A stretch of 64,000 bases of DNA from Desulfovibrio sp. Huiquan2017 (GTDB lineage: Bacteria; Desulfobacterota; Desulfovibrionia; Desulfovibrionales; Desulfovibrionaceae): the NCBI RefSeq assembly GCF_017351175.1, contig NZ_JAFMPN010000013.1, forward strand, positions 62,001 through 126,000, given 5' to 3'. Of this stretch, positions 50,717-56,218 are shown one piece after another. Position 1 is the first letter of the stretch. Each line of letters begins with the position of its first letter. The notes below the pieces were generated by a model, which did not search any database, was not told the DNA's origin, and saw only the letters and a program-made list of their open reading frames with translations. A program made the translations under genes and the position numbers.

Positions 50717-52276
50717 TCATCGCCGCAAATTGGCGGCGATGGAGACCAGATCCAGGCGGACGGACTCGGGCAGGGCGCGGTAGGGCTGCATGACCGTGCC
50801 GGGATAGCCGTCGGTGATGATCTGGAGGGACCGTTCGGGTTCGAGGGAGAACCGTCCCAGGTCCGGGGGCGCGGGCTGGAGGGTCAGGCCGAATTCCGAG
50901 GGTCGTCCGGTGAGCCCGTGGCAGGTGGCGCAGGTGTTTTTCCAGATGTCGCGAGCCGGTTCGCCGACTTCGCGCCGGGGCACGGTGGTCGGCCCGAACA
51001 GGCTGAAGCTCTTGTCCATCCGGTCGAGCAGCGAGTCGATCTTGTCTTTGTCGAAAACCGTGAAGTAGGGCATGCCCGAGCCGGGCACGCCGGTCAGGAT
51101 CATGGAGCGGACGTAGTCCCGGTCCGCGCGGACCGCGGCCAGGTCCTCGGGACGGATGAGCAACCGTTTGGCGGCCGGTCCGTCGCCCAGGCCGCCCACG
51201 CCGTGGCAGGGCTGGCAGCTTTTTTCATAGATGGTCGTGCCGTTGTCGTAGACCGTGGCGAGCTTGAGGCGGAAGGTCTTCAGCGCGGATTCGCGGAAGC
51301 GGTCCAGGTCGGCGGACTCTCGGGTCAGTTCCGCGCGGGCCTCCTTGTGCAGGGTCATGAGGGTGGCGTCTTGGAGGGATTGGCGGGCGGCGAGCATGGA
51401 CACGAAGACCAGCGGCAGGAGGACGAGCAGGGCGCGTCCGGTCCGGGCGGGGGCCGGGGTTTGGGCCGTGGCGGGGCGCAGGGTCCAGGCCATGGCCATG
51501 GCCGCTATGGTGCCGAGGGTCACGGAAGTCAGCACGGGCCAGTTGAATACGTCGGCCACGGTGAAGAGCAGGGGGGCTCCCACCGCCACCTGGAAGAGGA
51601 TGCCGCCGAACAGCCATGCGTGTAGCCGGGCGCGTTTGTCCGGGGCCTGCCCGGCGGTGAAGAACAGGTGGAAGGCCGCGCCGAAGACCACGGCCGCGCC
51701 GAGCACGTGCAGGTAGCGCAGGATCCAGTGCGGCAGGTAGACGGAAGTCGGCGACAGGGCCTTGGCCGCGAAGGCGGTCCACTCGCCGGGGCGCTCCATC
51801 AGGGACAGGGCTCCGGTGAAGATGGCCGGGACCGTGAGCAGCGCGCCCAGTCCGATGGCGCCGCTGAGAAACGGCAGCCAGGGGCGGGAAAGCATTTTGT
51901 GCTCGAACAGCTCGATGGCCAGGAAGGCGAGGATGAGCAGGGGGATGACCGCGAGCCAGGTGAAGGCGTACAGGCCGGTGGCCGTGAAGAAGCCCAGTGA
52001 ATAGATCACCTGGATGATCAGCAGGGGGCCCACGCCGAGGACCACGGCCAGGCTCTTGAGGCCCAGGTGGGATTTGACCATCCTCTGGTTCCAGCCCATG
52101 TCGGTTCGGTCGGCGGCGCAGCAGTCGCGCAGGAAGAAGACGAAGCCGAGCATGGCCGTGCCGAGCATGAGCAGGACGAAGAGCAGGTGCAGGCCGAAGG
52201 TGACGAAGAGCAGGATGCGCAGCCAGATCTCGGGGAGCGGCAGCGCGAGGAACAGGTCTTTCCAGGGTTCCATCAC
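50717..52276 (-). CDS. membrane dihaem cytochrome c, third gene of the tsdA operon
   Basis: 519 residues. The N-terminal half holds eight or so membrane helices (from LRILLFVTFGLHLLFVLLML), with His residues that could bind haem b, resembling a highly diverged bd-type subunit. The C-terminal half (about 330-519) has two class I cytochrome c domains with CQPCH near 354 and CATCH near 448, each followed by a Met-containing segment (SGMPYF, GTVMQPY). It overlaps the bd-like gene by 4 bases and would pass electrons between a soluble or periplasmic donor and the membrane. Confidence 0.82.
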   Translation of the reverse strand: MMEPWKDLFLALPLPEIWLRILLFVTFGLHLLFVLLMLGTAMLGFVFFLRDCCAADRTDMGWNQRMVKSHLGLKSLAVVLGVGPLLIIQVIYSLGFFTATGLYAFTWLAVIPLLILAFLAIELFEHKMLSRPWLPFLSGAIGLGALLTVPAIFTGALSLMERPGEWTAFAAKALSPTSVYLPHWILRYLHVLGAAVVFGAAFHLFFTAGQAPDKRARLHAWLFGGILFQVAVGAPLLFTVADVFNWPVLTSVTLGTIAAMAMAWTLRPATAQTPAPARTGRALLVLLPLVFVSMLAARQSLQDATLMTLHKEARAELTRESADLDRFRESALKTFRLKLATVYDNGTTIYEKSCQPCHGVGGLGDGPAAKRLLIRPEDLAAVRADRDYVRSMILTGVPGSGMPYFTVFDKDKIDSLLDRMDKSFSLFGPTTVPRREVGEPARDIWKNTCATCHGLTGRPSEFGLTLQPAPPDLGRFSLEPERSLQIITDGYPGTVMQPYRALPESVRLDLVSIAANLRR

Positions 52277-53628
52277 TTGACCTCCCCTTGCAGTTGCGGC
52301 CTGGGCAGGGTGTCCTTGTTGGCCATGGAATAGAGGTAGGTGGACATGGTCAGGCGTTCCTCCTCGGACCCGTTGAACGGGGTCATGAACGGCACCATGC
52401 TTTCGGTGATGGCGGTCATGGCGTTGACGCTTTCGAGCGTTCGGCCGCGCAGCCGCACGGTGATGTCGTTGATGCCGCCGATGGTGTGGCAGACCCCGCA
52501 GTTGGCGTCGAAAAGCGCGCGTCCCGCACGGGCCGCCGGGGCCTTGTCCGTGGTTTCGTTGACCCAGTCCAGGGTGGCCAGCAGCGGGCGGTCTTCGGCC
52601 TTGGAAGCCTCGTGGCGGACCATGCGTGATTGGTTGGCGTACATGTAGCCGGGCAGGAGGTAAGGCCCGCGCACGAACTCGCGCACCCGCTCGAACTCGG
52701 CCACCAGGCCCACGGACAGGATCAGGGCGGGCAGGAACAGGATCATGGCGGCCCCGCGGCGCTTGAGCAGCCCGGCCACGGCGGCCAGGGCCAGGCAGGC
52801 CACGGCCGCTCCGTTGAGCACGGGCAACAGATTCGGCGTCTGGGACCAGACGGAGGTGGCCACCGAGAACTTCCAGTGGGTCAGGTAGGTCCCGGGGATG
52901 CGGGAGAAGTAGATCCAGGCGAACAGGGCCGTGCCGGCCATGGCCGCAAGCATGACCAGACCGGTGGCGCGGAAGACCCGTCCGCGTTCATCGGCCGAGC
53001 CCCGGAACCGCCAACCGGTCCAGCCGAGGATGAGCAGCGCGCCCAAGGCGATGCCGGCGAAAATGCGCAGCATGAACTGGGGCACGAAGGTCGGGTTGAA
53101 GTAGGCCTGGGTAAACGTGCCGCCCTGGGGCCAGCCGTCCGGGGTGAGCATGAAGCCGAGGATGCCGGAGATGAGTACGGCGGAGCTCAGGGCTACGGCC
53201 ACGTAGCCCCAGCCCACGGCCATGAGCAGACGCGGGCGGCGCTCGGCGAGGCGGTCCCAGAGGAAATAATAGATGAGCAGGAAGACCACCTCGGTGGTGA
53301 AGGCCCACCACTCGATGAACCAGGGCCAGAAGAAGAGGTGGATGAGCGAGCCGATGCCCTCGGGCGCGAGAATGCCGGTGATGAACCAGATGCCCACACC
53401 GGTCACCGCGCCCACCGAAGTGGTGATGACCACCACGGGCTTGAGCAGGGCGCGCGCGGTCTCTCCCCAGAATCGCCCATGGCCCGTGGCCGCCAGGTTT
53501 TGGAAGAGGACAATGAGGATGGTCATGCCGATGGCCACGCCGTGGCTGATGAGCACGTGGAGAACGGCGTTCAGGGCGATGGTCATGCCGTCGCCGAGAA
53601 CGGGAACGTGAATCAGGGGGAAGGTCAT
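52273..53628 (-). CDS. bd-oxidase-like subunit I with fused haem c
   Basis: 451 residues. About nine membrane helices. His 24 or 29 (VLHVLISHG) matches the high-spin haem ligand region of CydA, and FIEWWAFTTEVVFLLIYYF with WDRL matches the helix bearing the two conserved Glu (here 106 and 113). The C-terminus (about 360-451) has a cytochrome c motif CGVCH near 375. The quinol-binding Q loop of classic CydA is not evident, so electrons probably come from cytochrome c. It resembles the c-containing branches of the bd superfamily; activity is unknown. Overlaps tsdA by 4 bases. Confidence 0.82.
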   Translation of the reverse strand: MTFPLIHVPVLGDGMTIALNAVLHVLISHGVAIGMTILIVLFQNLAATGHGRFWGETARALLKPVVVITTSVGAVTGVGIWFITGILAPEGIGSLIHLFFWPWFIEWWAFTTEVVFLLIYYFLWDRLAERRPRLLMAVGWGYVAVALSSAVLISGILGFMLTPDGWPQGGTFTQAYFNPTFVPQFMLRIFAGIALGALLILGWTGWRFRGSADERGRVFRATGLVMLAAMAGTALFAWIYFSRIPGTYLTHWKFSVATSVWSQTPNLLPVLNGAAVACLALAAVAGLLKRRGAAMILFLPALILSVGLVAEFERVREFVRGPYLLPGYMYANQSRMVRHEASKAEDRPLLATLDWVNETTDKAPAARAGRALFDANCGVCHTIGGINDITVRLRGRTLESVNAMTAITESMVPFMTPFNGSEEERLTMSTYLYSMANKDTLPRPQLQGEVK

Positions 53629-54512
53629 TTCTTGGCCTCCCCGGGCAGCGGGATGACCCGCTCGATCTTGTTCGGATGGGTGGCCTTGAACTTGGGCCGG
53701 GGTTGTCCATGCGCGTAGGCGGCCACGTCCAGGGCCTCCTCCTGGGTCAAGCTCGGGCTGGACTTGGGCATGAAGCGCCAGGCGAAGACCGAGAAGGTCC
53801 GGATGCGATTCATGCCCGCGCCGTCGTTATAGGCGCCGTCGCCCCACAGGGGCGGGGCGATGGGCGTGCCGTGCCCGTCGTCGCCGTGGCAGCGCGCACA
53901 GACGTCCTTGTAGACGGTCGCGCCCGCTTCGGCGTCGGGCTTGTGGTCGTTTTCCAGATGGTGGGCCAGGGCCGCCCACGGCGGGGTTGAGTAGATGGGG
54001 ATGCCCTTGGATATCCATTGGTAATAGACCAGCAGGGACTGCATGATCTGGCTGTCGGCGGCCGGGGCCTTGCCGTCCATGCTGCGTTCGAAACAGCCTT
54101 GGGTGCGCAGGGCCAGGTCGGCGGTGTATTCACGGCGGCCTCGGTAGAGCGGGTATTTGGCCCCCACCCCCACCAGCGAGATGGTGTCCTTGCTCCGTCC
54201 GCCGTCAAAATGGCAGTTGGTGCAGGCCATGTCGTTGCCCACGTACCCGGGCGCGTATTTCTTGGTCTCGGTCATGATCTTGTAGCCGAGCATGACCATG
54301 GGCCTGATCTGTTCCGGGGCGTCTTCGGGCGCAGGGGGGTTGAAAACCGGCTCAAGGGGCGCGGGGACCGTTCCCGTGGTCGGACCCGTAGCGGTCGGAC
54401 CGGCTGTCCTGGGCATGGGCGCGGACCATTGGAAGAAAAAGACCAGCCATGCGCCGAAAATCAACAACAAGACAACCAGGGTCAGAGAGAAAAACAGTTT
54501 TGCTTGGTTCAT
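53625..54512 (-). CDS. tsdA: TsdA-like thiosulfate dehydrogenase/tetrathionate reductase
   Basis: 295 residues. One N-terminal membrane anchor (about 7-28) holds it on the periplasmic side. Haem motifs CTNCH (97-101) and CARCH (205-209) are present. GCFERSMDG (Cys 140) is the segment that in TsdA supplies the unusual Cys ligand of the active-site haem, and PPLWGDGAYNDGAGMNR (219-235) is the family signature; MP at 248 may ligate haem 2. TsdA joins two thiosulfates to tetrathionate or the reverse. It is the first gene of a three-gene overlapping operon. Confidence 0.87.
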   Translation of the reverse strand: MNQAKLFFSLTLVVLLLIFGAWLVFFFQWSAPMPRTAGPTATGPTTGTVPAPLEPVFNPPAPEDAPEQIRPMVMLGYKIMTETKKYAPGYVGNDMACTNCHFDGGRSKDTISLVGVGAKYPLYRGRREYTADLALRTQGCFERSMDGKAPAADSQIMQSLLVYYQWISKGIPIYSTPPWAALAHHLENDHKPDAEAGATVYKDVCARCHGDDGHGTPIAPPLWGDGAYNDGAGMNRIRTFSVFAWRFMPKSSPSLTQEEALDVAAYAHGQPRPKFKATHPNKIERVIPLPGEAKK

Positions 54513-54793
54513 GGGATCTCCATTTGAACAGGCTGGATCGACAAAATCGGCGGCGTCCGCCCCGGACCGAGGCCGGGACCGCCGGAGGACAGTCTATGCG
54601 ATGTTTGGGTAGTTGTTCAACCGTCCGTGGCGAAAGTCACCCAAAAGTGCTCCTTCCCGGGCGCTCCGTCAACGCCCATCCGAATGGATGGGGTATCTCA
54701 TCCGGAACCATCATTTTCTGGACATTTTCGAGACAGTTGGTCTACGGATTGCCTAGGATCAGGCGCAGCCATTAGTCAATGGGAGCCGGGAGC
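54513..54793. other. divergent intergenic region between tsdA and the DAC-like gene
   Basis: 281 bases with no gene. A hairpin CCCATCC/GGATGGG (54675-54692) lies in the middle. Promoters for both directions are expected here; no clear -35/-10 pair was identified. Confidence 0.4.
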
Positions 54794-56218
54794 ATGTCGC
54801 AAGCATCGTTCGAAAACATTTGCATTTTCCATATCCTGGACGGTCTTCGGGACGGATTGTCTCATTTTTCGCCCCCGAGCCGGGTGGCGGTCATCTACGC
54901 CGTGAACCGTGGCGATCCGCTGCGCATCTGCGATCCGCAGGGGCTGCTTGAGGGACATGAGCCGAAGTTGCAGGACTATTTTCTCTACTCCAGCCGTTGG
55001 CGGGGCCGTGACGAATTCCTCGAGGGCGTGCGCGTGCTCAGCCAGGAGGAGATCGGCCTGGACCTGGCCGGGCTGATCACCCTGGGGGCGCGCTCCAACG
55101 CCGTGAGCTACCAGATGTGGTTCACCGAGGAGCACCCGAACCTGTGCTCGCCGGGCCCCACCAGAAACTGGCTGGAATACGCGGCCGAGCTGCTTTCCCA
55201 GCATTTCTCCATCGGCAACGTCATGGGCCTGGATACGGCCGGGTTCATGCTTCAGCATTGCGCCATTCACGCCATCCGCGACTTTATCGTGGATGAACGC
55301 TCCCGCCTGGGGTGGCTGGATACCAAGATCCGGGTCTATCCCTTCCTGGACGCCCTGCTCGGTGTGTCGGCCACCAAGGAGGAGGGGGCCGCGCCCCGGG
55401 GCCGCATCGTGGTGGTGGAGCCCAACCAGTTGGATCAGGTCCGGTTCATCTGCCGTTTCCCCGAGCACGAGCAGCCCAAGACCGCGAATTTCAAGCACGT
55501 GCGCAAGCTGTTGCAGGCGGTGGAGGACTCGGGACGGGTCCTGGTCTCGAACGGCACCTCGGTGCTGGGCATCGCCATCGGGCCCATGCCCGGCGCATAT
55601 CTTGCGGCCCAGTTCTCCGGCTCCTACGGGTTCCTGTGGATCCGCAACCAACTGGTGTGCAGCTTTTCCGACGGACGGTTCCAGTCCTCCAATCTACGGG
55701 CCAACCTGGTCCAATTGGAGGAACAGTTCCTGGAGACGGACATGACCATGGAGAAACAGAACGCCCTGTTCAAGATCGTCACCACCATGGTCAACCGGGT
55801 ACGCGACCGCAAGCACGGCTGCACCTTGGTGGTGGACATGGGCCGCGAGCCCCTGACCATGTCCGGCCAGCACCTGGAGGAACCCCTGGACCTGACCCGG
55901 AGCAGCCACCTCAAACTGGCCTGTTCCCTGTCCAGGCTCGACGGGGCCGTGCACATCGGCCGGGACCTTAGGCTGCACGGCTTCGCTTGCCTCATGGACG
56001 GACGCAGCGTGCCGGGCGAGAACCGGGCGCGGGGTGCGCGTTTCAATTCCGCCTTGCGTTTCACCGCCGATCACGAGCAACTGGTGGTCGTGGTCGTGTC
56101 CTCGGACCGCCCCGTGTCCATCATCAAGGACGGGGTGGAACTGACCGCGCTGTGCCATTTCCAGAATATCTGCGGCCTACATCGGCCTCCTTTGCTGGCC
56201 GAGTGGGTCATGAGCTAA
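54794..56218 (+). CDS. diadenylate-cyclase-like (DisA_N) protein with altered active site
   Basis: 474 residues from the ATG at 54794 (GGGAG 8 bases upstream); ATG 54779 lacks a ribosome site. The N-terminal 300 residues match no domain I know. The C-terminal part (about 365-460) aligns with the DAC domain: LDGAVHIGRDLRLHGFACL carries the DGA motif near 383, but the GTRHR motif reads GARFNSALRFTADHE near 414, losing the His and second Arg. Cyclic di-AMP synthesis is therefore doubtful; nucleotide binding or a new product is possible. The small membrane gene follows by 21 bases. Confidence 0.75.
   Translation: MSQASFENICIFHILDGLRDGLSHFSPPSRVAVIYAVNRGDPLRICDPQGLLEGHEPKLQDYFLYSSRWRGRDEFLEGVRVLSQEEIGLDLAGLITLGARSNAVSYQMWFTEEHPNLCSPGPTRNWLEYAAELLSQHFSIGNVMGLDTAGFMLQHCAIHAIRDFIVDERSRLGWLDTKIRVYPFLDALLGVSATKEEGAAPRGRIVVVEPNQLDQVRFICRFPEHEQPKTANFKHVRKLLQAVEDSGRVLVSNGTSVLGIAIGPMPGAYLAAQFSGSYGFLWIRNQLVCSFSDGRFQSSNLRANLVQLEEQFLETDMTMEKQNALFKIVTTMVNRVRDRKHGCTLVVDMGREPLTMSGQHLEEPLDLTRSSHLKLACSLSRLDGAVHIGRDLRLHGFACLMDGRSVPGENRARGARFNSALRFTADHEQLVVVVVSSDRPVSIIKDGVELTALCHFQNICGLHRPPLLAEWVMS

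Follow-up and report, generated by a model that had tools for sequence, protein, structure and literature searches.

The 64,000-nucleotide stretch of contig NZ_JAFMPN010000013.1 of Desulfovibrio sp. Huiquan2017 analysed here (the window) harbours three open reading frames on the minus strand, named A, B and C in the following, which combine a TsdA-like cytochrome with two membrane subunits related to cytochrome bd oxidases. Gene A (53625..54512, 295 aa) encodes, as judged by sequence and family match, a TsdA-like dihaem cytochrome c, gene B (52273..53628, 451 aa) a CydA-like membrane subunit whose C-terminus is a monohaem cytochrome c domain, and gene C (50717..52276, 518/519 aa) a membrane subunit in which a CydA fold is joined to a dihaem cytochrome c domain. 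An original prediction had proposed three leftward genes with 4-base overlaps. All three genes lie on the minus strand where it had placed them, but the overlaps hold only in part, i.e. A and B share 4 bases (ATGA, 53628-53625), while B and C do so only if C starts with the GTG at 52276. The alternative start, an ATG at 52273, is the next codon and the one where the homologues align, and would leave an overlap of 1 base with B (TGATG).

Subunits encoded by the operon

Subunit A matched the structure of Allochromatium vinosum TsdA (phmmer, 1e-35) as well as the SoxA/TsdA family PF21342 (above cut-off) and contains the segment GCFERSMDG with Cys140 along with PPLWG and GAGM, so that its original assignment to TsdA stands. 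The haem-1 motif CTNCH (residues 97-101, 54210..54224, on the minus strand like all features of the operon) and Cys140 (54093..54095), the predicted distal ligand of haem 1 and catalytic residue, were invariant in 45/45 A proteins, and the haem-2 motif CARCH (residues 205-209, 53886..53900) and Met248 (53769..53771), the predicted distal ligand of haem 2, were present in 44/44 complete A proteins. Cys140 is equivalent to Cys96 of A. vinosum TsdA and Cys138 of Campylobacter jejuni TsdA, and Met248 to Met209 and Met255, respectively; ligation of the haems at these positions has been proven for both enzymes (PMC5146829, PMC6879331 and PMC9562282). The place of A. vinosum Lys208 is taken by Phe247 in the window and by Phe, Asn or Tyr across the A proteins, and since Lys never occurs at this position, haem 2 of A should be of the His/Met, i.e. 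C. jejuni, type. The substrate-pocket residues Arg126 and Arg136 are present in A of the window, and both Arg are conserved in most A proteins. The N-terminus is strongly hydrophobic at about residues 6-30 without a signal-peptidase motif, a stretch present in nearly all members, and we read it as an uncleaved membrane anchor. Judged by these sequence features, A is a complete TsdA with both CXXCH haems, Cys140, a His/Met haem 2 and a membrane anchor.

Subunit B matched Cyt_bd_oxida_I (PF01654) with 59 bits (cut-off 26), confirming the CydA-like subunit with a fused CGVCH haem that had been proposed originally. Eight transmembrane (TM) helices were predicted, and its predicted model (predicted local distance difference test score, pLDDT, 77) matched Escherichia coli CydA (Z 26.9 over 309 residues), whereas alternative complex III and NrfD-type chains scored well below CydA. 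In a set of 75 relatives that includes distant paralogues, 75/75 sequences retain His24 (53557..53559), corresponding to the active-site haem ligand His19 of E. coli CydA, Glu106 and Glu113 (53290..53313), corresponding to Glu99 and Glu107, and Glu313 and Glu317, each with an Arg at +3 (52678..52692). The counterpart of Glu445, the ligand of haem b595, is Glu313 according to MAFFT (VAEFER vs VAEYGR in E. coli) and Glu317 according to a weaker HMMER alignment. Also invariant are the CXXCH of the haem-c motif (CGVCH, residues 377-381, 52486..52500) and Met415, the likely distal ligand of this haem.

The quinol loop (Q-loop) between TM6 and TM7, which had not been obvious in the original prediction either, is absent from B, the linker spanning only about 23 residues in the predicted model. 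With regard to the haem-b/d ligands, which the same prediction had singled out for a check, the outcome was divided: the O2-site residues are present, while the b558 ligands are missing, with E. coli His186 aligning with Leu187 and no invariant Met (cf. Met393) in the TM7 region. Since B keeps the residues of the O2 site in the absence of both the Q-loop and the b558 ligands, it would have lost the quinol entry, for which haem c would be the natural substitute.

Subunit C was originally taken for a membrane dihaem cytochrome. The two CXXCH motifs are indeed present (CQPCH, residues 353-357, 51203..51217; CATCH, residues 448-452, 50918..50932), but the CydA fold of the membrane part had been overlooked: in a predicted model better than that of B (pLDDT 87.5), residues 12-313 match CydA chains with Z 23-26 (top Z 26.1 over 298 residues), and the C-terminus matches dihaem cytochromes c. 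The fold also matches CydB chains; neither Pfam nor profile searches linked C to the CydB family (Cyt_bd_oxida_II), and a profile comparison identified C as homologous to B with 96.6% probability. Placing C by sequence alone against the single E. coli CydA or CydB proved too weak, and its position was settled by the fold prediction together with the profile match between B and C.

Like B, C has eight predicted TM helices, so that the haems c of both subunits would face the periplasm. Across 83 partner subunits, some of them near-duplicates and some without haem c from other systems, His29 in TM1 (52187..52189; HLLFVLLMLGTAML aligned with E. coli CydA HFLFVPLTLGMAFL), Gln88, His189 in the RYLH motif of TM5 (51707..51709), Met293 and Arg297 are invariant (83/83) and Arg186 is nearly so, while the catalytic Glu residues of CydA are not conserved. 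We infer that C replaces CydB and does not itself reduce O2, and it may hold a low-spin b haem.

As reportedly set out by Murali et al. in 2021, the OR-C class of the cytochrome bd superfamily comprises a CydA without a quinol site and with a C-terminal haem c. B fits this description, having no Q-loop and a C-terminal haem c, and B and C together look like the complete oxidase core of this cytochrome-c-linked class, without CydB. The classes of the superfamily, OR-C among them, are named in PMC13189123 and PMC10839748.

Co-inheritance and genomic context

Among 199 genomes of Desulfovibrionaceae, the same 18 possess a stand-alone TsdA and a B of the A-B-C type, always adjacent to each other; the A-B-C order is kept in 18/18 of them and in most loci of other lineages, and the one further TsdA-like match is a long fusion protein. 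Likewise, the same 13 of 395 Desulfobacterota genomes, including the frame-shifted G485, carry this B and the matching TsdA type, always adjacent. Apart from one fragment, all other TsdA matches are long fusion proteins that contain TsdA. Conservation of the trio, a check named in the original prediction, was thus found in 18/18 and 13/13 carriers, respectively. B of the A-B-C type forms one clade (support 100, 44 rows); the row of the window itself was omitted from the tree as a duplicate, and its nearest relatives lie inside the clade. The same gene order occurs in metagenome-assembled genome (MAG) loci of Desulfarculaceae, Nitrospirota and others, and the divergence of A, B and C is correlated (r 0.89-0.94), albeit confounded by species history. 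A-B-C is an inherited unit, far from chance.

Some loci depart from this pattern. Only the end of tsdA is left upstream of intact B and C genes in L016:7653-7988, reflecting either rearrangement or an assembly fault, and the operons of a Methanoperedens MAG (L017) and a Bacteroidetes MAG (L013) nest among Nitrospirota sequences, reflecting mis-binned contigs or transfer. Four-haem fusion proteins joining a MauG/cytochrome c peroxidase to a SoxA/TsdA-like part were found in L010:11579-13510, L018:11618-13528, L084:1301-3211 and L100:5927-8056, in three of these loci near the operon.

Within the host genus, only 1/17 genomes carries the operon. Its body has a GC content of 0.66-0.68, equal to that of the surroundings, and a recent horizontal gain is therefore unsupported by base composition. 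Neither a sigma-70 promoter nor a convincing terminator was found in the region around the operon. The divergent neighbour of A (54779-56218, plus strand) encodes a protein in which a diadenylate-cyclase domain is combined with the sensor domains DACND and DACNH. Elsewhere, the host genome encodes an ordinary CydAB (G000:C11) and no TsdA besides A, and its dsrA match scores well above the cut-off, indicating that it has a dissimilatory sulfite reductase, as would be expected for a sulfate reducer.

Proposed function and competing explanations

Gene content, conserved ligands, the predicted CydA folds of B and C, the hydrophobic anchor stretch of A and co-inheritance form the observed basis on which A, B and C can probably be regarded as one membrane-anchored thiosulfate:O2 oxidoreductase complex, whereby we infer the physical complex, the electron path, its direction and O2 as the acceptor. 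The His/Cys haem of A would be the site where two thiosulfate are oxidised to tetrathionate, and the electrons would leave through the His/Met haem of A for the haems c that C and B hold in the periplasm. The reduction of O2 to water would fall to B, whose bd-type dihaem site would draw its electrons from haem c rather than from quinol, while C would stand in for CydB and contribute electron-carrying haems. The thiosulfate/tetrathionate couple is too positive for menaquinone as acceptor, and the complex would consume O2 with a high-potential donor whose electrons menaquinone cannot accept. The potential of the couple is given as +198 mV (PMC9562282). Moreover, E. coli bd oxidases tolerate sulfide levels that stop haem-copper oxidases (PMC9774590), and the oxidase class would be expected to withstand the sulfide that the cell itself produces. 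The dedicated TsdA-to-oxidase chain envisaged originally thus survives as the best reading, given the identity of TsdA, the bd-superfamily partner without a Q-loop and the conservation of the trio.

The direction of the reaction is suggested by the gene context. Sulfur-oxidation genes lie near the operon in about half of the loci outside Desulfovibrionaceae: in L011 and L014, a SoxB-like gene overlaps the end of C (TIGR04486, 352 bits, below the cut-off of 550), and SorA and SorB-like proteins (below cut-offs where scored) are encoded nearby in L014, L024, L025 and L033. Other neighbours include DsrE, TauE and a CysP/ModA-like binding protein. For Erythrobacter flavus, experiments support a route of thiosulfate oxidation in which SoxB acts after TsdA (PMC7608252). 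Since SoxB-like, SorAB and DsrE neighbours point to the oxidative direction in other lineages, the context favours thiosulfate oxidation over tetrathionate reduction, which makes the originally mentioned variant with tetrathionate as acceptor less likely.

Several observations weigh against the thiosulfate:O2 oxidoreductase. No sulfur-oxidation genes adjoin the operon in the Desulfovibrionaceae loci; TsdA is bidirectional, and haem 2 of A is of the type of the C. jejuni enzyme, which acts as a tetrathionate reductase; in L031:7416-10929, TsdA is missing and a DsrC-like gene immediately precedes B and C; and in a Desulfovibrio subclade (L008, L009, L046-L049 and L051) A keeps the Cys and both haems while both substrate-pocket Arg are lost (Ser/Asn and Lys), a possible change of substrate.

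The main rival, which we consider unlikely, is a quinol:tetrathionate reductase, in which menaquinol would deliver electrons to a hitherto unrecognised site in B and C, from where they would travel via the haems c to A for the reduction of tetrathionate to thiosulfate in anaerobic respiration. Electron transfer from menaquinol to tetrathionate is downhill, and the carriers of the operon are mainly anaerobes, Desulfovibrio and Bilophila included. The reversibility of TsdA and the resemblance of haem 2 to that of the tetrathionate-reducing C. jejuni enzyme (PMC5146829, PMC6879331) also fit. However, B keeps all O2-site residues examined and has no Q-loop, a combination contrary to the requirements of a quinol dehydrogenase, and in other lineages the neighbouring SoxB-like and SorAB genes indicate oxidation.

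Alternatively, B and C could be a general cytochrome-c oxidase serving several periplasmic cytochromes, with TsdA as one donor or merely co-regulated and no dedicated complex. This possibility is favoured by the many Desulfobacterota in which relatives of B and C are found but TsdA is not, by the DsrC-like gene in place of TsdA in L031 and by the extra haems of C, which could serve other donors. However, A and its B clade strictly co-occur and adjoin each other, A has a membrane anchor and the divergence of the three subunits is correlated (with the confounding stated above), which renders a general oxidase improbable. Finally, an acceptor other than O2 (e.g. nitric oxide, NO) or a site that mainly detoxifies O2 without useful thiosulfate turnover is very unlikely, since, although canonical bd oxidases can act in O2 and NO detoxification (PMC10839748) and the hosts are mostly anaerobes, no sequence feature favours NO over O2 and the linkage to TsdA implies a sustained electron supply.

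If the thiosulfate:O2 oxidoreductase is real, the operon would supply candidate genes for the oxidation of thiosulfate with oxygen in sulfate reducers, and it would mark cryptic sulfur cycling at boundaries between oxic and anoxic zones. It would also provide the uncharacterised cytochrome-c-linked bd oxidases with a natural electron donor, whose simple substrate makes the class testable.

Comparison with known systems

In the literature excerpts searched, to which neither the paper defining OR-C nor Kurth et al. (2016) belonged, TsdA and cytochrome bd were found only as separate items, and a CydA-fold partner with two haems c was not found in the same search, again with the defining OR-C paper outside it. 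It is tempting to speculate, at somewhat short of an even chance, that sulfate reducers and sulfur-metabolising Nitrospirota share an undescribed supercomplex, i.e. TsdA hard-wired to a quinol-independent, sulfide-tolerant bd-type oxidase with two CydA-fold subunits and five haems c. Such a supercomplex would explain aerobic thiosulfate oxidation by anaerobes.

A shares the dihaem fold, the His/Cys haem 1, the His/Met haem 2 and, in most members, the substrate Arg with the TsdA and TsdBA of A. vinosum, C. jejuni and Marichromatium purpuratum. Unlike these enzymes, it carries a membrane anchor, and its partners are two subunits of the bd superfamily rather than TsdB or a soluble cytochrome c. 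Compared with the canonical quinol oxidase CydAB, the fold and the active-site His/Glu residues are retained, whereas B is devoid of the Q-loop and the b558 ligands, no recognisable CydB is present and haems c have been added.

Desulfovibrionaceae possess another related system, here termed B'+C' (host G000:C17; host copy L066:6050-9607), found in about 110/199 genomes, in which a CydA-like protein mostly with eight CXXCH motifs (PF22113) accompanies a C-like partner free of haem c. Its CydA-like N-terminus with haem c and its C-like partner resemble the subunits described here, while the seven further haems in an MtrC/F-like C-terminus of B', the absence of haem c from C' and the lack of TsdA set it apart. 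B'+C' could be an unrecognised O2-linked complex; Desulfovibrio vulgaris deprived of its two known oxidases fares better than expected at low O2 (PMC4383621).

The OR-C class shares the CydA fold, the absence of a quinol loop, the fused haem c and a partner membrane subunit with B and C. The present system differs from the class in that C carries two extra haems c, TsdA is part of the operon and, among the sampled relatives, this type of B makes up a clade of its own. We know of no link to TsdA for the OR-N CydAA' of Nitrospira and Nitrospinota, a separate class. OR-N also consists of two CydA-type subunits and is thought to be fed by cytochrome c (PMC10839748). Taken together, all parts of the A-B-C operon come from known families, while their wiring appears new.

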